A stretch of DNA of 44,812 bases from Dysgonomonas sp. Marseille-P4677 (GTDB lineage Bacteria; Bacteroidota; Bacteroidia; Bacteroidales; Dysgonomonadaceae). The DNA lies in contig NZ_JAEPKU010000020.1 in NCBI RefSeq assembly GCF_016652235.1, forward strand, positions 1 to 44,812, read 5' to 3'. How positions within the stretch are numbered: position 1 is the stretch's first letter; the number at the start of each line of letters is the position of its first letter. Under the pieces are notes generated by a model. It saw only the letters and a program-made list of their open reading frames with translations. It was not told where the DNA came from and did not search any database. The translations under genes and the position numbers were made by a program. Of this stretch, positions 25,942 through 36,826 are shown in pieces.

Positions 25942-26715
25942 TTATTCGCTGAGAGTTTCCTTCAGTGCGTTGACTGCGTCTTTTATACTTGTATGTTCCT
26001 TTAGTAAGGTAATAAACTTACTGCCGATAATTGCACCGCTTGCATTTGTCTGTGCAGCATCTAATGTCGCTTTGTTTGATATGCCGAACCCGATAAGACG
26101 AGGGTTGCGCAAGTTCATTCCATTTATTTTACGGAAATATTCTTGTTTTTTCTCATCGAAACTCTTTTGTGCTCCTGTAGTAGATGCTGAAGAAACCATA
26201 TAAATAAAGCCATCAGTATGTTCATCTATCAGCCGGATACGCTCATCAGACGTTTCGGGAGTAATAAGCATTACTATTTTGATGTCATATTTGTCAGCAA
26301 TAGCTTTATATTCATTTATATAGTCGTTGAATGGTAGGTCCGGAATTATTGCTCCATCGATGCCTATCTCATTGCATTTTTTACAAAAGTTTTCAAAGCC
26401 ATATCTCATAATAGGATTCAGATACCCCATCATAATCAATGGTATATTTACATCTTTACGAATGTCTTTTAACTGGTCGAACAAGATTTTCAATGTCATG
26501 CCATTTCTTAAAGCCGTTGTTCCACTATCCTGAATAGTAGGACCATCTGCCATCGGGTCTGAAAAAGGGATGCCTATTTCTATTAGGTCGATACCGTTCG
26601 CTTCCAGTTCGCGGATAATATTGCAGGTGTCGTCCAGACGAGGAAATCCTGCCGTAAAATAGATAGAAAGTATATCTTTCTTCTTCTTTTCGAATAGTTG
26701 CTTAATCCTGTTCAT
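25942..26715 (-). CDS. trpA: Tryptophan synthase alpha subunit
   Basis: A 257-residue TIM-barrel enzyme that releases indole from indole-3-glycerol phosphate. The catalytic Glu and Asp are visible in [20 protein letters not shown], with FTAGFP at the start of the barrel and [13 protein letters not shown] in the phosphate-binding half. It is the last gene of the trp operon and overlaps trpF by 14 bases. Its partner is one of the two TrpB proteins upstream, most likely the classical one. Confidence 0.96.
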
Positions 26716-27328
26716 ATTCTAGTTCTTTTATAAATTGCTGTAATAATGTTATGTCTTTTAATCCGGGCTCCTTTTCAAATTTACTGTTGAGATCAAGACC
26801 GTAAAACTGTGGATGCTTTATCTTTTTTATTTCATCTATATCATTAATAGATATACCGCCACTAAGGAAAAAAGGAGTATTTCCTGTATATGTTTCTAGT
26901 ATGCTCCAATCAAATTTTTGCCCCGACCCGCCATATTGAGGTGTTTTAGTATCGAATAGGAAATATCCCTGTAATCCATCATATGCCTTAGTCTTATCGA
27001 TATCTGAAGAATCTGCGATACTGAATGCTTTTATAATCGGGAGCATCCTATTCAGCCCTTTACAGAATTCCGGCGATTCGTTTCCATGCAGTTGGATAAG
27101 ATCCAGATTATATTTGTTTACCTTATTCAGTATAAAATCTATATCTGAATTGACAAAGACTCCGACTCTTTTAATATAATCAGGTAAAATCTTTAAGTCT
27201 GGTAAAATAAGGTTTTCTACATATCGAGGCGATTTTTGATAAAATATCATCCCCATAAAGTGGATAGGTAAAGTACCTAGATCTTTTATGTTGTCGGGAT
27301 ATTTCATCCCGCAGACTTTTATTTTCAT
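26702..27328 (-). CDS. trpF: Phosphoribosylanthranilate isomerase
   Basis: A 208-residue TIM-barrel enzyme for the isomerisation before indole-glycerol-phosphate synthesis. The active-site Cys is in [14 protein letters not shown], and [23 protein letters not shown] and the catalytic Asp in GLDLNSKFE are all present. It overlaps trpC by 4 bases and trpA by 14, as in tightly packed operons. Confidence 0.96.
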
Positions 27329-28107
27329 TTCAACTGTATTATAAATTCTTCAAGTGATTTACCTGGATTAGGAGTTTTCATAAAGTTTTCACCCATGAGG
27401 AATCCTTTATAACCGGCTTGTTGAAGTTCAATTACCGTTTGAGGTTGAGATATACCACTCTCGGATATTTTTACAAACTCATCAGGAATCTTATCAGCTA
27501 AATCGAATGATATTTGTACATCTGTTACAAAGGAACCAAGATTACGGTTGTTTACACCGACTACATCCACGTTATCATTAATATGTCCCAATTCTTGTTC
27601 GTTGTGTATCTCGAGCAATACATCAAGACCTAATTCTTTTGCTTTTGCTGCAAGGAGTTTTGTCTCTTGTATCGATAGAGCAGACGCGATGAGTAGAATT
27701 GCATTGGCTCCGGCTAACTTTGCCTGATAGAGTTGGTATTCATCTACCATGAAATCTTTTCGTAATAGGGGAATAGTCGTAAGATTTCTTGCCAATTCCA
27801 AATCGACGAGTGTGCCTCCGAAGAAATCGATATCTGTAAGTACAGAAATAGCACTGGCTCCATTTTTAGAATAGAGAGGAATCACATCTTCTACTTTGGC
27901 ATCCTTAAATATCCAGTCGCGCGAAGGGGATCTACGCTTAAACTCAGCAATAATTCCGGTAGGGGAATTAACCAATACTTCTTTAAACGAGTACTTATTG
28001 TTTATATCGGTAATTTTTTCTTCTAACAGGGAGAGAGAGAGAATTGCCTTCTCTCTTTGCACTTCTTCTCTTTTATTAGCGATTATTTTATCTAAAATAT
28101 TAGTCAT
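27325..28107 (-). CDS. trpC: Indole-3-glycerol phosphate synthase
   Basis: A 260-residue TIM-barrel enzyme closing the indole ring. The N-terminal extension (ILDKIIANKREEVQ) is typical. Catalytic and phosphate-site segments are AEFKRRSPSRD, RKDFMVDEYQL, LLEIHNEQEL, VGVNNRNLGSF and SESGI. It overlaps trpF by 4 bases and the MFS gene by 8, so the MFS insert is translationally joined to this gene. Confidence 0.96.
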   Translation of the reverse strand: MTNILDKIIANKREEVQREKAILSLSLLEEKITDINNKYSFKEVLVNSPTGIIAEFKRRSPSRDWIFKDAKVEDVIPLYSKNGASAISVLTDIDFFGGTLVDLELARNLTTIPLLRKDFMVDEYQLYQAKLAGANAILLIASALSIQETKLLAAKAKELGLDVLLEIHNEQELGHINDNVDVVGVNNRNLGSFVTDVQISFDLADKIPDEFVKISESGISQPQTVIELQQAGYKGFLMGENFMKTPNPGKSLEEFIIQLK

Positions 28108-29305
28108 TAGTCTCTGTTTTAGGACGTTTAATTTTATCGAATTTCAAAATCTTTACAGTGGAAGCCAGTACGACTATGCAGATGCCAAATAGTCCTATTA
28201 AAGCATAGGAATATCTTAAATTAGTAACACTTGCAATATAACCTATAAGTGGTGGCCCCATAAGAAAACCGAGGAAGCTTACACTCGAAACTATTGTAAG
28301 AGCTATACTGGTCGGTATTTTAGTCTTTTGCCCGGCTATACTATATATTGTAGGTACGATTCCGGCAGTACCGAAACCTATGATCATAAATGCAACTATA
28401 GTTGTTGCAAAATAAGGTAGAGCAACAGCAGTGAATAGTCCTATGGATATGAGGAGTCCTCCGGCTTGTATTACTTTCTTTCTGCCCCATTTTTGAGTCG
28501 CTTTATCTATAAGGAAGCGTCCCGAAGCCATTGTTATCATATAGGCTGCTAGCCCTATTGGAGCCATATGTTTTGGTGTGCCCACTACATCGATGAGGAA
28601 AAGTCCGCTCCAATCCGACATCGCTCCTTCTGCAGCCATACCACAAAAGGCAACTATGCCTAGAAGGAATAAGAATGTTTCCGGTTTGTTCCTTTTATTT
28701 TTTTCTTTTTCAGTCTGGTCTTTAACCTTTTTAATGTCAGGTTGTAAAAACCGTTTGTTTATTAGTAGACAAATAAGAATGATTATCGCTATAATGGAAA
28801 AATGGTATATTGGTTTTAAATGAATAGATGCCATTAGCAATCCAACACTTGCACCAGTCAATCCTGCTAGGCTCCAGCCTCCATGAAAGGAGGCCATTAT
28901 CGGTTTGTTATATGTCGTTTCTAGTGTTACTGCTTGTGTGTTGATTGAAATATTACAGAAGTTTCCAAAGAATCCGAAAATAATAAGACTTATTATCAGG
29001 GCATATTCACTGGCCGAAATGCCAATAAGCAGTAAGGCTAATATGTATCCGATAAGAGCAATAGGAAGTATCTTCTTACTTCCGGCTTTAGATATAATTA
29101 ATCCAGATATAGTCATTCCGCATATTTGCCCGATAGGAATCATCAGGAGAATTGTACCCCATGCTGCATCTCCGAGTTCTAACGTAGTTTTAATATCAGG
29201 TATACGGCTAGCCCAACTGGAAAAACTTAATCCTGTACAAAAATACAAACAGAATATTGCGATGCGGATTCGTTCTTTTGAGGTTGTCTGAATATTACTT
29301 TCCAT
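28100..29305 (-). CDS. MFS transporter inside the trp operon
   Basis: A 401-residue major-facilitator protein with 12 predicted helices in two halves linked by a basic cytoplasmic loop (near KKVKDQTEKEKNKRNK). The first loop, SWASRIPDIKTTLELGD, resembles a group often annotated as sugar or drug transporters (YbjJ-like). The substrate is unknown. It overlaps trpC by 8 bases and its first base coincides with the end of the quinone-reductase gene, so it is translated in the same operon. A role moving an aromatic compound is attractive but unproven. Confidence 0.88.
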   Translation of the reverse strand: MESNIQTTSKERIRIAIFCLYFCTGLSFSSWASRIPDIKTTLELGDAAWGTILLMIPIGQICGMTISGLIISKAGSKKILPIALIGYILALLLIGISASEYALIISLIIFGFFGNFCNISINTQAVTLETTYNKPIMASFHGGWSLAGLTGASVGLLMASIHLKPIYHFSIIAIIILICLLINKRFLQPDIKKVKDQTEKEKNKRNKPETFLFLLGIVAFCGMAAEGAMSDWSGLFLIDVVGTPKHMAPIGLAAYMITMASGRFLIDKATQKWGRKKVIQAGGLLISIGLFTAVALPYFATTIVAFMIIGFGTAGIVPTIYSIAGQKTKIPTSIALTIVSSVSFLGFLMGPPLIGYIASVTNLRYSYALIGLFGICIVVLASTVKILKFDKIKRPKTETND

Positions 29306-29877
29306 TATTTTTGAGCTATTACCTCTATTTTATTTAACCACTTTTCTCTTTGTTCCGGAGTTGATTTTTTTAATGTAGCGAGATATGTTGTGCGTATATT
29401 TTTTATACCACAAAATGCACCAATATTCTTACGTATCAATTTCCCTCCAACGTCGTTGAGGAACCATTTATAATAGAAAACAGGAGCGTCCATCGTACTG
29501 ATTATTTCAGAAGTTTTCCCTGAAAGAAGTTTTTTGGGGAATGGTGATTTTTCCTGATATTGGAATGTGAATCCCGGAAGAAATACTCGTTCAATAAATC
29601 CTTTAAGTAGAGCTGGTGGCGATGCCCACCAAGTAGGATAAATCCAGACGATATGTTCGGCCCATTGTAGTTTATCCCACGCATCGAGTAGGTCTGGCTC
29701 TAGTTCGGTACGCTTGCGGTAACCATACATAAGAATCGGATTGAAGGTCATGTCGGATAAAATGATTTCTTTCACTTCATTACCCTTCTTGAGACTGCCT
29801 CTCTTATAACTCTCATGCAATCCGAAACAAAAACTTTCTTTGTCGGGATGACCATTTATTATCAGTACTTTTTTCAT
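29305..29877 (-). CDS. NAD(P)H dehydrogenase (quinone)-like flavodoxin-fold protein
   Basis: A 190-residue flavodoxin-fold reductase of the NQO1/KefF-type. The start MKKVLIINGHPDKESFC binds the flavin phosphate, and WIYPTWWASPPALLKGFIERVFLPGFTF is the diagnostic block. Such enzymes reduce quinones and nitroaromatics by two electrons. Another ATG lies two codons upstream (29883), giving 192 residues. It lies between a chorismate mutase and an MFS gene in the trp operon. Why a quinone reductase is here is not evident. Confidence 0.88.
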   Translation of the reverse strand: MKKVLIINGHPDKESFCFGLHESYKRGSLKKGNEVKEIILSDMTFNPILMYGYRKRTELEPDLLDAWDKLQWAEHIVWIYPTWWASPPALLKGFIERVFLPGFTFQYQEKSPFPKKLLSGKTSEIISTMDAPVFYYKWFLNDVGGKLIRKNIGAFCGIKNIRTTYLATLKKSTPEQREKWLNKIEVIAQK

Positions 29878-29885
29878 GAACATAA

Positions 29886-30212
29886 TTAATAATAAGACTG
29901 TTTGATCTCTTTATATAAAGAGTCAAATTCAGTTAATTCTTCAATGATAAATGTATTTATCATTGTTCGGTATACCTTCTCCGTAATTATTGGGTTTAAG
30001 TCGACTTGTTCGGCTAAAGCTCTAACTTTGGATATTACCAAATCTATCCTGTCTGTTGCGAGCACTTCTGCTGTTGATTTTTTAAAATGAACAGCCTGTG
30101 ATACAAATTTACTACGTTTTGCAATCAGTTTAACTAATTCTGTATCTATTTTATCTATGTTGTCCCTTATATCATCAAGCGAACTGCAGAGAGGTGTTTC
30201 TTGTGATTCCAT
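29886..30212 (-). CDS. AroQ-fold chorismate mutase (PchB-like group)
   Basis: A 108-residue helical protein of the chorismate mutase type II fold. The N-terminal helix DDIRDNIDKIDTELVKLIAKR, the HFKKS segment, and DRIDLVISKVRALAEQVDLNP with the FIIEELTEF tail fit the AroQ/PchB branch. Chorismate mutase would pull chorismate to prephenate, competing with TrpE in the same operon; a PchB-like isochorismate-pyruvate lyase is an alternative. It starts 11 bases past the trpD stop. The presence of a branch-point competitor in a trp operon is unusual. Confidence 0.85.
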   Translation of the reverse strand: MESQETPLCSSLDDIRDNIDKIDTELVKLIAKRSKFVSQAVHFKKSTAEVLATDRIDLVISKVRALAEQVDLNPIITEKVYRTMINTFIIEELTEFDSLYKEIKQSYY

Positions 30213-30223
30213 ACTAGAAACTA

Positions 30224-31222
30224 TTAAGCGTTTAATTCCAGAAATTTTCTGAACGTTTCCTTTGTTTTCCCACTATCTAATGATTCACGTGCCTCTGCAA
30301 CGGCATCTTCAAACGAAATATTTAAATTTATAGTCTGAATAGCAGTAGCAGCATTGGCTATCACCGCATTTTTTTGAGCCGGTGTTGCCATATTATTTAT
30401 AACATTATCAAATATCTTGGAGGCATCTTCAGGTGTTGAACCTCCATAGAGTTCTTTTTCTGTATAACGTTCAAACCCGACTTGCTCAGGACTATAAATT
30501 CGTTCTTCAAATTTATTGATTATTTTGAAATCTCCTGTCAACGAAATCTCATCATATCCATCCAAACCATGTACAATGGAATAATCTACATCAGTTTGCT
30601 GATACATATAGGAGTATAGACGTGCCATCTTTAGGTTAAAGACACCTAATACAGTTCGTTTTGGTTTTATAGGGTTTACTACCGGACCAAGCATATTGAA
30701 AAATGTACGGACACCTAAAGCTTTACGTATAGGCGCTACGACCTTCAAAGCATTGTTGAATAGCGGAGCATGCATATATGCAATATTAGTCTTAGCTAAC
30801 GATTCTTCCAATTTATCTACATTTGCGGTGAATTTTACTCCATGCTGTTCCATGACATTCGACGCACCACTTACTGAAGTAGCTCCATAATTTCCATGCT
30901 TGGCAACTTTATATCCCGCTCCAGCTGTAACAAAACAAGCCAGTGTAGATATATTGAATGTATTTTTGTTATCGCCACCTGTACCTACAATATCAATTGG
31001 ATTATACGCTGCTAATGGGTCTACATTCGCTCGTAAATCCAACAGTGCATCAGAAAATCCTAAAAATTCGTCTACACTGATACTTCGCATTAGGAAAACA
31101 CTTATAAATGCCGCAATTTCAGAATCATTGTATATCCCCGCTGCCATATTAGTTAGTATTTCCTTTGCCTCGTTGCGGTTGAGGTATTGATGCTCGAATA
31201 GTCTGTTTAGTATCTGTTTCAT
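30224..31222 (-). CDS. trpD: Anthranilate phosphoribosyltransferase
   Basis: A 332-residue enzyme joining anthranilate to PRPP. The PRPP-binding DIVGTGGDNKNTFNIST is near residue 77. KHGNYGATSVSGASNVMEQHG and RTFFNMLGPVVNP follow, and HGLDGYDEISLTG is the conserved C-terminal block. The small N-terminal domain is complete. It is separated by 45 bases from the exported hypothetical gene upstream, the largest gap in the operon. Confidence 0.96.
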   Translation of the reverse strand: MKQILNRLFEHQYLNRNEAKEILTNMAAGIYNDSEIAAFISVFLMRSISVDEFLGFSDALLDLRANVDPLAAYNPIDIVGTGGDNKNTFNISTLACFVTAGAGYKVAKHGNYGATSVSGASNVMEQHGVKFTANVDKLEESLAKTNIAYMHAPLFNNALKVVAPIRKALGVRTFFNMLGPVVNPIKPKRTVLGVFNLKMARLYSYMYQQTDVDYSIVHGLDGYDEISLTGDFKIINKFEERIYSPEQVGFERYTEKELYGGSTPEDASKIFDNVINNMATPAQKNAVIANAATAIQTINLNISFEDAVAEARESLDSGKTKETFRKFLELNA

Positions 31223-31267
31223 TATATTATTAGCTATTGCGGTTCTACTTTATTTATAATACAGTAA

Positions 31268-32065
31268 TCAGTTCTCTTCAAAAAAATTGTCCCATAAATA
31301 TTGATGTTTAGCTTTTTCGAATGGGAATTCGAATATCAATGATAGTGAATCTACTACATGTTCATCTCCTTTCAATGGGTTTTCGTAATATGATAGTATA
31401 TAATGATCAGATCCCATAGGAGCATCTTCTACTAAATTTTTTCTAATCTCTTTCATGATTATCAAATTCTCTCCATGCCATTTATAGAGAGTGAGGATGA
31501 GAGGCATATACCAGCTCCCGCCATAATAAGTTCTGACTGTCTTAGCTATTTTATCGGCTTCATAAGTAGATGTAAAGAAACTCGCTGCAATATGTACAGA
31601 GTCATTGTTGGGAGAAAAGTAATATATTTCTTTGAAGGTATTACCATTCATATTGGGATAGGAGAAAGTGATCACTTCATTTCTATTATCGCCATCCATA
31701 TCTTCAATAGATACATCAAAGATTTGCTCCCATACAGGACGTTCTGATCCAATCTGCTTCCATTTAGTTTTAGCTAAATCAAAATAGTAAAAGTTTAATA
31801 ATGTATCTTTATCATCATACAGTAAGGCATAGACGTTTTGCTCATCTATAATTTTTCCTATTATATGCGAAAAATGTCCATCTTTATGATATGCTATATC
31901 ATAGATAGTATCAGATTTTTCAGTAAATTTCTTTATGTCAGGACTAATGCTATCCAGATAGACTGGAATATTTTCATCCAGTCTATTCGGGATATCATTA
32001 TTCCCCCTTACAAAGAAATATAAAGATGCAAGTAATGAGGTTAATATGATGAGTGAATATCTCAT
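31268..32065 (-). CDS. Exported hypothetical protein within the trp operon
   Basis: A 265-residue protein I do not recognise. Residues 1-20 ([19 protein letters not shown]) form a signal peptide or membrane anchor. A calcium-binding-like [13 protein letters not shown] occurs near residue 115, as in FG-GAP/VCBS-like or XAC2610-type proteins. The rest is aromatic-rich, beta-like ([16 protein letters not shown], then [17 protein letters not shown]). It overlaps trpB2 by 4 bases, so it is read with the operon, yet an exported protein has no obvious part in tryptophan synthesis. Confidence 0.7.
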
Positions 32066-33420
32066 TTAACTAGTTTTTCCAACGTATTTGTTGTTCGTGC
32101 AATTTCTTCGTCAGTCAGATCATAATTCTTCATCTTTCCGGTCAGAAATTGATCGTAAGCCGTCATATCTATTAACCCATGTCCTGAAAGGTTGAATAAT
32201 ATTGTTTTCTGCACACCTTCTTCTTTAGCTTTCAACGCTTCACGGATAGCAGAAGCAATGGCATGAGTAGATTCTGGAGCAGGGATAATACCTTCGGTGT
32301 TAGCGAATAATTTGCCTGCTTCGAAGGTTTCCAATTGAGGTATAGCCTGCACCTCAACAAATCCATCTCTATGTAATTGGCTGACAATAGTACCAGCTCC
32401 GTGGTAACGCAATCCTCCGGCGTGAATATCTGCGGGTTGGAAGTCGTGTCCAAGAGTATACATTGGAAGAAGTGGAGTTAAGCCGACAGTATCTCCATAA
32501 TCGTATTCAAATTTACCTCTCGATAATTTTGGAGTACTAGCAGGTTCGGCTGCAATAATGCGTACTTCTTTACCATCCGTCAGCTTATGACGAAGGAATG
32601 GAAAACTGATCCCTGAGAAATTGGAACCACCGCCAAAACAGCCGATAACAATATCCGGATATTCGCCAGCCATTTCCATCTGCTTTTCACTTTCCAATCC
32701 GATGATAGTTTGGTGAAGGATAACGTGATTCAATACACTACCTAGTGTATATCGGGTGTTTTCTCCTTTTACGGCAGCTTCTACGGCCTCGGAAATGGCG
32801 ATACCAAGGCTTCCCGAATTATTAGGGTCTTTAGCTAAAATGCTTCTACCCGAGTCGGTCAGAGTGCTGGGAGAAGGAATTACATTTGCACCCCATGTTT
32901 GCATCATCATGCGACGATATGGTTTTTGTTCGTAACTAACCTTTACCATATATACTTCCAGATCTAAACCAAATAGGCTTGATGCAAAACTCAAAGCTGC
33001 ACCCCATTGTCCGGCTCCTGTTTCCGTCGTAAGCCGTTTGATACCTTGCTTCTTATTATAATATGCTTGCGGTAATGCAGAGTTTAATTTGTGCGAACCT
33101 ATCGGGCTTACTCCTTCATTTTTGAAATAGATATGAGCTGGGGTATCCAGCGCTTTTTCCAGCCCTGTAGCTCTTACTACCGGAGTCGGTCTCCATATTT
33201 TGTATAATTCTCTTACTTCGTCAGGGATTTCAATCCATCTTTCCTCTGTCAGTTCCTGATTGATCAGTTCTTTTGCAAAAATAGGTTCGAGATCGGAAGG
33301 ATTTAGTACTTCTTTTGTCTGAGGATTAAGTGGAGGTAACGGCTTATTTTTCATATCCGCTACAATGTTATACCAACTTTTAGGAATATCATCCTCACTT
33401 AAAAAGATTTTCTTGCTCAT
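32062..33420 (-). CDS. trpB2: TrpB2-type tryptophan synthase beta-like protein
   Basis: A 452-residue PLP enzyme, longer than classical TrpB and with the TrpB2 N-terminus ([26 protein letters not shown]). The PLP lysine is in [30 protein letters not shown] and the LFNLSGHG end are intact, so it is probably active. TrpB2 proteins can make tryptophan from indole and serine without TrpA, acting as indole salvage or rescue. The classical trpB is the first gene of the same operon. It overlaps the exported hypothetical by 4 bases. Confidence 0.93.
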
Positions 33421-33437
33421 AATTGTTAGATTTATAT

Positions 33438-34004
33438 TTAGTTATTTAAAAAGTTTCTGACTATTGCTTTTCCTGCCGGAGTCAATACCGATTCAGGGTG
33501 AAATTGAACACCGTGTATATCAAATTCTTTATGTCTTAAGGCCATAATTTGTCCATTATCATCTATTGCGGTAATTTCTATGCAATCAGGTAAATCAAGT
33601 TTGTTCACTATCCATGAATGATAACGTCCTACTTCCAGTCTATTGTCAAGTCCATTAAAAAGATAATCAGGCTTGATGATACTTATTTTTGTTGCAACGC
33701 CATGGTATACATCTTCCAGATTACTTAGCTTTGCCCCGAATGTTTCTCCGATAGCCTGATGTCCCAGACATACTCCCAGAATAGGCTTCTTACCAGCATA
33801 TTCTTTAATCAAAGGGAGCAGTAGTCCGGCTTCGGACGGGATGCCAGGACCGGGAGAAAGAATAATCTTATCATATTTTTCGACATCTTCAAGAGCTATC
33901 TTGTCGTTTCTGTATACATCGACCTCTGTGAAGCCTAGTTCTTTAACTAAGTGTACGAGATTGTATGTAAATGAGTCGTAATTATCGAATATCAGAATTT
34001 TCAT
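33438..34004 (-). CDS. trpG: Anthranilate synthase glutamine amidotransferase subunit
   Basis: A 188-residue class I glutamine amidotransferase supplying ammonia to TrpE. Motifs are [19 protein letters not shown], the nucleophile Cys in [12 protein letters not shown], and the His/Glu pair in [10 protein letters not shown]. It ends 17 bases before trpB2 and begins 15 bases past the trpE stop. The pair makes the amination step of the pathway. PabA sharing with folate synthesis is possible but not indicated here. Confidence 0.95.
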
Positions 34005-34019
34005 ATTTTCTTACTTAAC

Positions 34020-35426
34020 TTAGTTTTTTAGTTTCTCGGCAAACTTAACAGCTTTAGTTAATGCGCCCAGTTTGTTCTTTACTTCCATTACTTCAGTTTC
34101 AGGATTAGATTTGGAAACAATACCTCCTCCTGCCTGATAATACAATGTGTTATTTCTACTTAGAAATGTACGGATGGTAATGGCCTGATTCAAATCACCA
34201 TTAAAACCAATATATCCGATGCATCCTCCATATACTCCACGCATTTGCTTTTCTATATCCCTAATCAATTGCATTGCTCTCACTTTTGGCGCACCGGATA
34301 ATGTTCCGGCAGGGAATGTATCGGCAAAGACAGAGATACTATTTCTTCCTTTGTCAACTGTTCCACTAACACGTGATACCAAGTGAATGACATGAGAATA
34401 GAATTGAACATTCTTGTAAAATTCAACTCTAACATCCTGGCAGTTACGACTTAGATCGTTGCGTGCAAGATCGACAAGCATGACATGTTCGGCATTCTCT
34501 TTCTCGTCTTTTAATAGATTTTCGGAAAGAATACGGTCCTTTTCATCATCACCTGTGCGGAAATATGTGCCGGCTATGGGGTCTATGTAAGCCTTACCTT
34601 TTGTTATTTTACAATGTGTTTCAGGAGATGAGCCAAATATGCGGAAGGAGCCAAATTCGAAGTAAAACAGGTATGGAGAAGGGTTGATGGAGCGTAAAGA
34701 ACGATATACTTTAAAATCGTCACCGGCAAATTTTTGAGTGAAGCAACGTGAAAGGACTATTTGAAAAACGTCACCACGCTTACAATGTGCAATTCCTTTC
34801 TTTATCATCTCCTGATGTTCTTCATCGGTAATCATTGATTGCTCCTGACCTATAGCTTCAAAATTATATGATGCAATATTATTATTGGTAAGTATAGCTT
34901 CCAGCTCATGAGACTTTTCTTCCGATCCATCCGCTATGTTTTCAATAATTGTCAACTCATTCTTTAAATGGTTAATAACTAGTATGAAACGATAGAGAAT
35001 ATAATAGAATTCAGGAATATCTGCATTTTTTAGTTTCGTATTAATCGGGTCTACAGTTTCGAAGTGTCGGATGGCATCATAGGATGTATAACCGAAAAAA
35101 CCATTGATATTCGTTTGGTTTTCACCTTTTACATCAAATTCACCAATGAATTCATGAAATTTGTCTGTTAATTTCTGATGTCCTGATAAGGTTTCTTGTT
35201 TTACTGTATTGTCGGGATAAGTATAAGTTATTTCATCATTTTCTACTTTAAACCGTGCAATAGGACTGATGCCTATAAATGAGAAGCTATTCTCTCCTCC
35301 ATGATAGTCAGAACTTTCCAATAAAGCAGATTCTGGATATATATCTCTTACCTTCAGGTAGATTCCTACCGGTGTTTGAAGATCGGCAAGAAGGTTTTTT
35401 GTTTTTACATTTATTTTATATTTCAT
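34020..35426 (-). CDS. trpE: Anthranilate synthase component I
   Basis: A 468-residue chorismate-using enzyme. The N-terminal ALLESSDYHGGENSFSFIGISP is the LLES region that binds feedback tryptophan in TrpE, so end-product inhibition is likely. The catalytic half has VFQIVLSRCF, DPIAGTYFRTG, FPAGTLSGAPKVRAMQLI and YQAGGGIVSKSNPETE. Two starts are possible: MPKIMK at 35438 overlaps trpB by 8 bases, while MKYKIN at 35426 leaves a 4-base gap. I chose the second because the family often starts MK plus a few residues. Confidence 0.94.
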   Translation of the reverse strand: MKYKINVKTKNLLADLQTPVGIYLKVRDIYPESALLESSDYHGGENSFSFIGISPIARFKVENDEITYTYPDNTVKQETLSGHQKLTDKFHEFIGEFDVKGENQTNINGFFGYTSYDAIRHFETVDPINTKLKNADIPEFYYILYRFILVINHLKNELTIIENIADGSEEKSHELEAILTNNNIASYNFEAIGQEQSMITDEEHQEMIKKGIAHCKRGDVFQIVLSRCFTQKFAGDDFKVYRSLRSINPSPYLFYFEFGSFRIFGSSPETHCKITKGKAYIDPIAGTYFRTGDDEKDRILSENLLKDEKENAEHVMLVDLARNDLSRNCQDVRVEFYKNVQFYSHVIHLVSRVSGTVDKGRNSISVFADTFPAGTLSGAPKVRAMQLIRDIEKQMRGVYGGCIGYIGFNGDLNQAITIRTFLSRNNTLYYQAGGGIVSKSNPETEVMEVKNKLGALTKAVKFAEKLKN

Positions 35427-35430
35427 TATT

Positions 35431-36612
35431 TTAGGCATTATAATTTATATATGTTTCCATATCCTTATCTCCTCTTCCTGAAAGACATAGTACGACAATA
35501 TCATCTGCTTTGAATTTCATCTTGTTTAATGCGCCCAGCGCATGCGCCGATTCTATAGCCGGAATGATACCTTCCAGTTTGGTCAGTTCGAAAGCCGCTT
35601 GCATAGCTTCATCGTCTGTTACAGCGAGTACTTGCGAACGTCCTATCTTGGCGAGATGAGCATGCATCGGACCGATACCCGGATAATCCAAGCCGGCTGA
35701 TATAGAATAAGGTTCTTCTATTTGCCCGTCTTCCGATTGCATAATCAGAGTCTTACTTCCATGAATGATTCCCAGTTTTCCTAAATGGATAGTTGCTGCC
35801 GATTCTCCGGAATTTATACCTTTTCCGGCAGCTTCCGCAAGTACTATTTCTGTATTTATTTCATCTATGAAGTGGTATATTGTACCTGCGGCATTGCTGC
35901 CACCTCCTACACAGGCCATCACATAGTCAGGTGTTTCACGACCTTCTTTTTCGAGTAGTTGTTTTCGTATTTCTTCACTAATGATCGATTGTAGACGTGC
36001 TACCATATCTGGATAGGGATGGGGACCCACAGTCGAACCGATTACATAATATGTGTTGGATGGGTTGCTGCACCAGTCGCGTATGGCTTCATTGGTCGCA
36101 TCCTTGAGAGTCATATTTCCACTGGTAACAGGAACAACTGTAGCACCAAGCATTTCCATTTTTTGTACATTCAGTTTCTGGCGTTCTACATCCACAGCTC
36201 CCATGTATACAACACATTCCATATTCATCAGTGCACAAACTGTTGCAGTAGCGACACCGTGTTGCCCGGCTCCTGTTTCGGCTATAATGCGGGTTTTTCC
36301 CATGCGGCGGGCAATCAATATCTGTCCTATTGCATTGTTTATTTTATGGGAACCCGTATGGTTGAGGTCTTCTCGTTTAAGATATATTTTGCATCCATAT
36401 TTTAGAGACAAACGGTTAGCTAAATATAGGGGTGATGGTCGGCCTACATAGTCTTTTAATAAACCTTCATATTCTTCTTTAAAGGATGGCTCATTTAATA
36501 CTTCTAAATAAGTATTCTTCAATGTTTCTACATTATCATAAAGAATTTCAGGTATATATGCACCACCGAATTCTCCATAAAAGCCATTTGAATCAACTGT
36601 GAATTTTCCCAT
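35431..36612 (-). CDS. trpB: Tryptophan synthase beta subunit (classical TrpB)
   Basis: A 393-residue PLP enzyme joining indole and serine. GEFGGAYIPE opens the chain; the PLP lysine is in HKINNAIGQ. ETGAGQHGVATA, CVGGGSNAAG and LSGRGDKDM are intact, so this is the TrpA partner. The frame is open to 36639, but ATG at 36612 gives the standard MGKFTVDSNGFYG start, and 36639 lies inside the terminator T-tract area. It is the first structural gene after the leader, a gene order known from Bacteroidales. Confidence 0.96.
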   Translation of the reverse strand: MGKFTVDSNGFYGEFGGAYIPEILYDNVETLKNTYLEVLNEPSFKEEYEGLLKDYVGRPSPLYLANRLSLKYGCKIYLKREDLNHTGSHKINNAIGQILIARRMGKTRIIAETGAGQHGVATATVCALMNMECVVYMGAVDVERQKLNVQKMEMLGATVVPVTSGNMTLKDATNEAIRDWCSNPSNTYYVIGSTVGPHPYPDMVARLQSIISEEIRKQLLEKEGRETPDYVMACVGGGSNAAGTIYHFIDEINTEIVLAEAAGKGINSGESAATIHLGKLGIIHGSKTLIMQSEDGQIEEPYSISAGLDYPGIGPMHAHLAKIGRSQVLAVTDDEAMQAAFELTKLEGIIPAIESAHALGALNKMKFKADDIVVLCLSGRGDKDMETYINYNA

Positions 36613-36640
36613 TTTATATTTTGTTTTGTTTATTATCATA

Positions 36641-36674
36641 AAAAAAAAGCCTATCGTGAGTTACGATAGGCTTT
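36641..36674 (-). terminator. trp attenuator terminator hairpin
   Basis: On the minus strand, AAAGCCTATCGT (36674-36663) and ACGATAGGCTTT (36657-36646) form a perfect 12-bp stem with loop AACTC. A run of eight T residues ends at 36641. It lies 44 bases past the leader stop and about 28 bases before the trpB ATG. It is a complete intrinsic terminator positioned to stop transcription before the operon. Confidence 0.92.
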
Positions 36675-36723
36675 GTATTTTAAAAACTTTCTATTTGTAA
36701 ATACACACCGACTTGGCTCACGA
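36654..36723 (-). promoter_or_regulatory. trp antiterminator: two nested 7-bp helices
   Basis: On the minus strand TCGTGAG (36723-36717) is complementary to CTCACGA (36660-36654), and TGTATTT (36705-36699) to AAATACA (36680-36674). They nest, forming one long structure that uses the loop and 3' arm of the terminator and so excludes it. The leader stop TGA (36720-36718) lies inside the first arm. A ribosome held at the Trp codons (36750-36742) leaves this arm free; one finishing at the stop covers it. Confidence 0.8.
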
Positions 36724-36777
36724 CTTTTTAAGTTGAGAGTGCCACCACCAAAATGTATTTGTTAATAAAAAGCTCAT
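36718..36777 (-). CDS. trpL: trp operon leader peptide with three consecutive Trp codons
   Basis: A 19-codon frame reading MSFLLTNTFWWWHSQLKKS followed by TGA. Trp codons 10-12 are TGG TGG TGG at 36750-36742. Three adjacent Trp codons in so short a frame, between a promoter and a terminator before a trp operon, are the mark of ribosome-mediated attenuation. Its ATG lies about 15 bases past the expected transcription start. Low charged tRNA-Trp would stall ribosomes on these codons and open the antiterminator. No Shine-Dalgarno sequence precedes it; the upstream bases are A-rich, as is normal in this phylum. Confidence 0.92.
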   Translation of the reverse strand: MSFLLTNTFWWWHSQLKKS

Positions 36778-36796
36778 TTTTTCTTTTTTGTTTTTG

Positions 36797-36826
36797 CAAA
36801 GATATAAAAAAAATGATATTGACAAA
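36797..36826 (-). promoter_or_regulatory. Promoter of the trp operon
   Basis: On the minus strand, TTTG (36826-36823), an 18-base spacer and TATCTTTG (36804-36797) match the two Bacteroidota elements. The expected start is near 36790. This is the best-formed promoter in the window along with that of rpmB. Confidence 0.75.

Follow-up and report, generated by a model that had tools for sequence, protein, structure and literature searches.

A Bacteroid-trp leader as a very probable ribosome-mediated attenuator of the trp operon in Dysgonomonas sp. Marseille-P4677

Described trp leaders and affiliation of the element

In trpL, the trp leader of E. coli, RNA segment 2 takes segment 3, the 5' arm of the terminator. 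Members of the Bacteroidota largely initiate translation without Shine-Dalgarno pairing. A comparative study of attenuation in bacteria was reportedly made by Lopatovskaya and others in 2010. Passages of a study on actinobacteria (PMC1262725) describe trp attenuators which, similar to the leader reported here, encode leader peptides in which UGG occurs two or three times and contain complementary triples common to terminator and antiterminator, conserved across the compared genomes. In contrast to the present leader, these triples are GC-rich (gGCC-rGCy-GGCC), and the likeness is one of descriptions. For B. thetaiotaomicron, sORFs in long 5' UTRs reminiscent of attenuation leaders were reported (PMC7366714), the words 'tryptophan' and 'trpB' being absent from the main text of that source. 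A passage on the trp leader of Flavobacterium psychrophilum (PMC6414381) mentions Bacteroid-trp and a similarity to the E. coli leader; this passage contains neither a test of attenuation nor an antiterminator. Bacteroid-trp itself (RF01692) is given in Table 1 of PMC2864571 (2010) as a probable cis-regulatory RNA of Bacteroidetes. The literature searched, with most subscription journals outside its range, contained no experimental study of a Bacteroid-trp element and fits the remark made in the original prediction for this locus that attenuation in Bacteroidota is little studied.

The window, i.e. the whole stretch of 44,812 nt analysed from Dysgonomonas sp. Marseille-P4677, was compared with 4227 Rfam families and yielded one match above the gathering score. 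This match affiliates positions 36665-36797 of the minus strand with RF01692 over the complete model (50.8 bits, model positions 1-131 of 131, gathering score 49 bits), and a search of the whole genome with the same model returned it alone. The score is barely above the cut-off, and several consensus pairs are non-standard in the alignment of the window. Shared with the family are the phylum, the location ahead of a trp gene and the leader frame with its Trp codons, and probably the sequestering hairpin too: the match lies upstream of trp genes of a member of the Bacteroidota, with trpB first and the genes trpB to trpA downstream, and it comprises consecutive Trp codons in a short ORF, as implied by the name and the consensus of RF01692. 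The element is a member of RF01692 and, since that family has already been published, no discovery. The model ends within the 5' arm of the terminator (model position 131 corresponds to 36665) and its consensus structure holds the sequestering hairpin only; the antiterminator and the terminator described here fall outside. The mechanism proposed below is sharper than the one given by the literature searched, and the same antiterminator may already have been proposed in the supplement of PMC2864571.

With E values of up to 0.001 and strict filters that lose weak matches, the RF01692 model gave matches in 53 of the 101 genomes sampled from the window's family; the corresponding figures were 38 of 393 for the order, 15 of 295 for the class and 30 of 296 for the phylum (the samples overlap), so that at the level of order, class and phylum it finds Bacteroid-trp in a minority of the sampled genomes. 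A search for sister attenuators elsewhere in the window's genome gave no stretch of five consecutive His codons, and the pattern AGTCGTGAG-N30..60-CTCACGA occurred once only, at the trp leader.

Similar to E. coli trpL (RF00513), the element combines a short Trp-codon leader, a sequestering hairpin, a terminator and a rival pairing that would be freed by a stalled ribosome. In contrast to trpL, its antiterminator arm holds the stop codon of the leader and takes the terminator loop and 3' arm, and the RF00513 model (Trp_leader) reached 19.5 bits in the window, below its cut-off of 41. From this and the analyses described below, the element, as a member of the Bacteroid-trp family, very probably controls the trp operon by ribosome-mediated attenuation of transcription.

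The leader and its operon

A two-element promoter, a 19-codon leader frame with TGG TGG TGG and a perfect 12-bp terminator had been predicted on the minus strand, and all three were recovered. The putative promoter (36826-36797), read directly from the sequence, consists of TTTG (36826-36823) and, after 18 nt, TATCTTTG (36804-36797); its TTTG/TAnnTTTG form differs from E. coli and represents what we take to be the Bacteroidota-type consensus. A scan of the 44.8-kb window on both strands finds the pattern TTTG-N16..24-TANNTTTG four times, this promoter included. Of the 85 leaders having 40 nt of upstream sequence, 68 carry TANNTTTG within that stretch before the leader ATG. A generic sigma-70 scan did not list the promoter at 36826-36797.

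The leader peptide ORF (36777-36718, minus strand) consists of MSFLLTNTFWWWHSQLKKS and the stop codon TGA; its 19 codons, beginning with the ATG at 36777, translate to M S F L L T N T F W W W H S Q L K K S. Codons 10-12 are the three Trp codons TGG TGG TGG (36750-36742), the predicted stall site. The inner 5' strand of the sequestering hairpin, CTCTCAACT (36739-36731), hides the 5' arm of the antiterminator, GTCGTGAG (36724-36717); both strands were assigned from pairing in the alignment A1 described below. As originally predicted, the leader stop codon (36720-36718) lies inside this arm. The 3' arm of the antiterminator, CTCACGAT (36660-36653), was assigned from pairing and folding and is composed of three terminator-loop bases followed by the five with which the 3' arm of the terminator begins; within it, CTCACGA (36660-36654) is complementary to TCGTGAG (36723-36717) of the 5' arm. 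The motif TGTATTT (36705-36699) is, according to the folds, the partner common to two copies of AAATACA. Copy 1 (36760-36754), missed by the original prediction, is located within the leader frame and pairs with TGTATTT in the sequestering hairpin, as also in the RF01692 consensus hairpin. Copy 2 (36680-36674) forms a small, terminator-compatible hairpin with it.

The intrinsic terminator (36674-36646) is a hairpin of 12 bp with the loop AACTC, whose arms (36674-36663 and 36657-36646) match in 12/12 pairs. The T tract that follows had been given as eight residues and counts nine (36648-36640), the first three of which pair with the AAA of the terminator. The 150-nt leader folds with -40.8 kcal/mol compared to a mean of -23.1 for shuffled sequences (z -5.0; 0 of 200 shuffles as good).

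Downstream, trpB (35431-36612, minus strand; TIGR00263, 577.5 bits, cut-off 392.45) is the first gene of the operon that would be controlled. The remainder (25942-35438, minus strand) encodes, from trpE to trpA, trpE, trpG, a TrpB-like PLP enzyme, a 265-aa protein, trpD, a chorismate-mutase-type protein, a flavodoxin-fold protein, an MFS transporter, trpC, trpF and trpA. Their spacing suggests that the genes from trpB to trpA form a single transcript. For trpB, the start at 36612 appears more likely than that at 36639: the relative L021 has an in-frame stop four codons after the upstream ATG, which renders the ATG at 36639 an unlikely start. The TrpB searches were started at 36612 by choice and do not decide this point.

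Two TrpB-type genes are present in this one operon, the ordinary trpB (35431-36612, minus strand) and the TrpB-like PLP enzyme (32062-33420, minus strand; NF009057, 726.6 bits) located between trpG and trpD. Among 61 named loci longer than 15 kb, a copy of the latter with at least 60% identity was present in 14, and the chorismate-mutase, flavodoxin and MFS genes were present in 7, 10 and 16, respectively. The 265-aa protein encoded within the operon (31268-32065, minus strand) had no Pfam or NCBIfam match at E 0.001 and, by tblastn at E 0.001, 0 matches in the same 61 loci.

Conservation and pairing among relatives

Loci were chosen by TrpB similarity alone, disregarding the leader. Among the best 80 of 99, the closest named relatives were mostly Dysgonomonas, with TrpB identities of up to 91%, and a Trp-Trp leader precedes the first gene of the operon in 75 of the 80, in agreement with the predicted conservation of Trp codons among relatives. 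The leader ORF lies at most 400 nt upstream of trpB in 47 of these best 80 loci (46 with a terminator). In a further 28, mostly Aquimarina, a Trp-Trp-Trp leader with a terminator is located before trpE, and the distance from the leader ATG to the start of the TrpE match is 153-239 nt; these loci (L110-L114, L116-L129 and L131-L139) have the gene order trpE-G-D-C-F-B-A and the same leader design before trpE. Because the leader is found before trpB or trpE, whichever comes first, it follows the front end of the operon and not a particular gene. L130, one of the five loci without a counted leader, extends only 983 nt upstream of trpB; L082 is a cut locus, yet a terminator with CTCACGA is visible; L090 and L096 have no such leader in the stretch examined; and the fifth, L061, has Trp-Arg-Trp in a leader that matches in its other parts. 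Elsewhere in the loci, the ORF-plus-terminator rule gave 28 hits in 2.16 million nt of strand, a background that is inflated, as the trpE-proximal leaders lay within the scanned part.

For the analysis of pairing, 106 leaders with a leader ORF were reduced to 103 with a terminator (the rule did not find one in L040, L047 and L094, which were left out) and to 87 distinct leaders, which were aligned with MAFFT. As 57 of the extracted leaders had been found via the RF01692 model and Trp-Trp was required in all rows, the conservation of Trp-Trp and of RF01692 features was not counted on this selected set. Alignment A1 comprises 45 of the 87 leaders, hand-chosen and mainly from the window's family. 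In these 45 sequences, the antiterminator GTCGTGAG:CTCACGAT (36724-36717 with 36660-36653) is paired in 95.5% of cells. The sequestering hairpin, in the version of the window with its several non-standard Rfam consensus pairs, reaches 89.2% as a whole and 99.0% in its inner part (CTCTCAACT with 36725-36717, over the seven pairs that are standard in the window), and the pairing of TGTATTT with copy 1 of AAATACA reaches 79.2%. For the terminator, 98.7% of cells are paired and both sides have changed in 7 of 12 pairs. Every structure exceeded its own slid versions in both cells paired and covariation score.

The original prediction had named two nested pairings, TCGTGAG:CTCACGA and TGTATTT:AAATACA, as excluding the terminator. 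The nesting of the second inside the first holds for copy 2 of AAATACA (36680-36674), and TCGTGAG:CTCACGA does exclude the terminator. It is the only one to do so: TGTATTT:AAATACA (36680) is paired in only 67.9% of A1 cells and shares one minimum-energy structure with the terminator in the RNA left free by a Trp-stalled ribosome. This less conserved, terminator-compatible pairing was rejected as a component of the excluding antiterminator.

Covarying helix pairs had been proposed as a test. Across families the antiterminator remains paired and bases on both of its sides have changed, but few of these events were independent. In shuffles of A1, both-side changes were as high as observed in 447 of 500 cases for the antiterminator and in 374 of 500 for the sequestering hairpin, and further pair types in 495 and 446 of 500, respectively. 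Since shuffles often match the observed values, the measure of both-side changes is uninformative for these two structures. In the alignment of 87 leaders, the second base of the stop codon takes part in a G-C pair in 61, in an A-U pair in 23 and in neither in 3, and the matching base of the sequestering hairpin is U in all 23 leaders with A-U. The arm pair two bases beyond is G-C in 67, A-U in 5, G-U in 1 and non-standard in 4 of the 77 leaders without a gap, and the pair in between is A-U in 66 of 85 and non-standard in the rest. In 64 of 87 leaders, exactly four bases of the antiterminator arm precede the stop codon. Mapped onto a TrpB tree of 85, the G-to-A change requires two changes and gives one supported independent pair, in which the change runs the same way on both sides; a single such pair cannot reach significance. 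Despite large cell counts, only two changes on the tree concern the key pair, and covariation was dismissed as decisive proof; the changes in the antiterminator are consistent with compensation, too few in number to prove it. Duplexes formed within a leader had a mean energy of -13.2 kcal/mol, against -12.1 kcal/mol for arms swapped between leaders (0 of 5000 permutations, relatedness being ignored), and a terminator's own leader was in the best quartile for only 0.32 of terminators.

Folding of the transcript and the proposed switch

For the complete transcript of the window, the probability of the terminator was 0.91-0.96 without a ribosome, with a ribosome at the Trp codons and with a ribosome at the stop codon, and in only 2 of the 87 leaders did a Trp-stalled ribosome bring it under 0.5. 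As the finished terminator prevails in almost every sequence and state, an equilibrium model of the switch was rejected. With complete transcripts favouring the terminator, the switch would have to be kinetic, and partial transcripts were used for folding in place of complete ones.

The occlusion was estimated by placing the last Trp codon in the A site and allowing a reach of 15 nt from the P site. A Trp-stalled ribosome would thus cover CTCTCAACT (36739-36731), to approximately 36732, and leave the arm 36724-36717 free, and a ribosome at the stop codon would cover the arm, in rough agreement with the coordinates predicted originally. When the transcript included 4 to 8 nt of the 3' arm of the terminator, the antiterminator of the window had a probability of 0.93-1.00 if a ribosome stood at the last Trp codon, compared to 0.00-0.06 if there was none and 0.00-0.32 if it stood at the stop codon. 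With 5 nt made, it exceeded 0.5 in 9 of 87 leaders without a ribosome and in 76 of 87 with a Trp-stalled one; 67 of the 87 were switch-like, i.e. favoured the antiterminator only with a Trp-stalled ribosome, and 20 failed. Among the Flavobacteriia, 24 of 28 leaders were switch-like. Footprints of 10, 12, 15 and 18 nt, combined with 5 or 7 nt of the arm, gave 56 to 71 switch-like leaders of 87. Ten rounds of shuffling the stretch that separates the terminator from the last Trp codon gave 1 to 8 switch-like leaders of 87; this shuffle moves dinucleotide blocks and breaks the sequestering hairpin too.

Terminator and antiterminator were mutually exclusive in silico, as in a classical attenuator, the terminator needing five of the bases 36660-36653. 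A stalled ribosome freed the antiterminator and a stop-codon ribosome blocked it on partial transcripts, not with the full terminator equilibrated. The predicted ribosome-occlusion logic was reproduced by folding; in detail it departs from that of E. coli trpL, as an antiterminator that takes the loop and the 3' arm can win only kinetically. The minimum-energy structure changes from antiterminator to terminator at the point where the RNA extends to 36648 and the 3' arm has 10 of its 12 bases. At the release point of the polymerase, the last eight or nine bases remain in the RNA-DNA hybrid, and with these bases still held there the antiterminator could persist at the moment of choice.

The preference of full-length folding for the terminator in every ribosome state of the window, like the few independent changes behind the covariation of the antiterminator, would also be expected of a real terminator with fixed low read-through, the alternative pairings being a by-product of conserved sequence. 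This explanation is very unlikely: the loop bases, dispensable for the terminator, stay complementary to the leader arm (85/87, 66/85 and 73/77 leaders without a gap), shuffled segments seldom give a switch (1-8 of 87 compared to 67), and the runs of Trp codons that precede trp genes in 75 of 80 loci (the best of 99) would be left without a role. Slightly less probable still is direct sensing of tryptophan or tRNA-Trp by the leader, which would then be a T-box, a riboswitch or the target of a TRAP-like protein, the short ORF being incidental. A terminator with alternative folds suits any such leader and the RNA folds well even without a ribosome, but the predicted switch needs ribosome occlusion (9 of 87 leaders without a ribosome, 76 of 87 with a Trp-stalled one), the register of the stop codon with the antiterminator arm is kept in 64 of 87, and the sole Rfam match above its gathering score in the window is Bacteroid-trp. 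None of the 14 Rfam matches examined belongs to a T-box or riboswitch-named family, and the 'trpB ncRNA motif' (RF04312) reached 22.6 bits, below its gathering score of 59.

For the preferred reading, ribosome-mediated attenuation, we infer promoter use, leader translation, stalling, termination and a response to tryptophan from the sequence parts, their conservation, their pairing and the predicted switch. Transcription would start near 36790 and a ribosome would begin the leader peptide. With ample charged tRNA-Trp, the ribosome would reach the stop codon (36720-36718) and cover the antiterminator arm (36724-36717); upon its release, the arm would fold into the sequestering hairpin. In either state, with a ribosome at the stop codon or a sequestered arm, the terminator (36674-36646) would form and transcription would end near 36640. 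With tRNA-Trp in short supply, the ribosome would stall at 36750-36742 and cover 36739-36731, so that the arm 36724-36717 stays free, pairs with 36660-36653 while the 3' arm of the terminator emerges, and the polymerase continues into trpB. The RNA switch thereby probably lets the trp genes be read only under tryptophan shortage.

A terminated leader RNA or peptide that acts also in trans, besides in cis, as reported of the Sinorhizobium trp leader peptide peTrpL (PMC7298713), is the least probable explanation, for although a transcript of about 150 nt with a stable 3' hairpin would presumably accumulate under plentiful tryptophan and a weak likeness to the Qrr small-RNA model was found (27.2 bits, gathering score 50; probably a reflection of the terminator), the conserved stretches of the leader coincide with RNA arms and hence need no separate role in trans.

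With attenuation in cis as the most probable function, the element is ordinary in kind and adds a concrete mechanism for the family RF01692. As the antiterminator arm takes the loop and the emerging 3' arm, the choice would be made within a few nucleotides before the terminator hairpin closes. We lean, by a small degree, towards the view that the Bacteroidota, here Bacteroidales and Flavobacteriia, share one conserved kinetic trp design unlike that of E. coli, with the stop codon in or beside the antiterminator arm, an arm that takes the loop and the emerging 3' arm, and a choice just before the hairpin closes. If true, the switch would work only with a ribosome close behind the polymerase, and the fact that it is conserved would then speak for a coupling of transcription and translation in this phylum. 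The element also offers a conserved handle for asking whether ribosomes closely trail RNA polymerase in Bacteroidota.

A deviating leader was encountered in locus L061 (leader ATG 8836), where TGG CGG TGG, coding for Trp-Arg-Trp, replaces the three consecutive Trp codons and the other parts are kept. This locus represents a natural variant for the question of how many Trp codons are needed.
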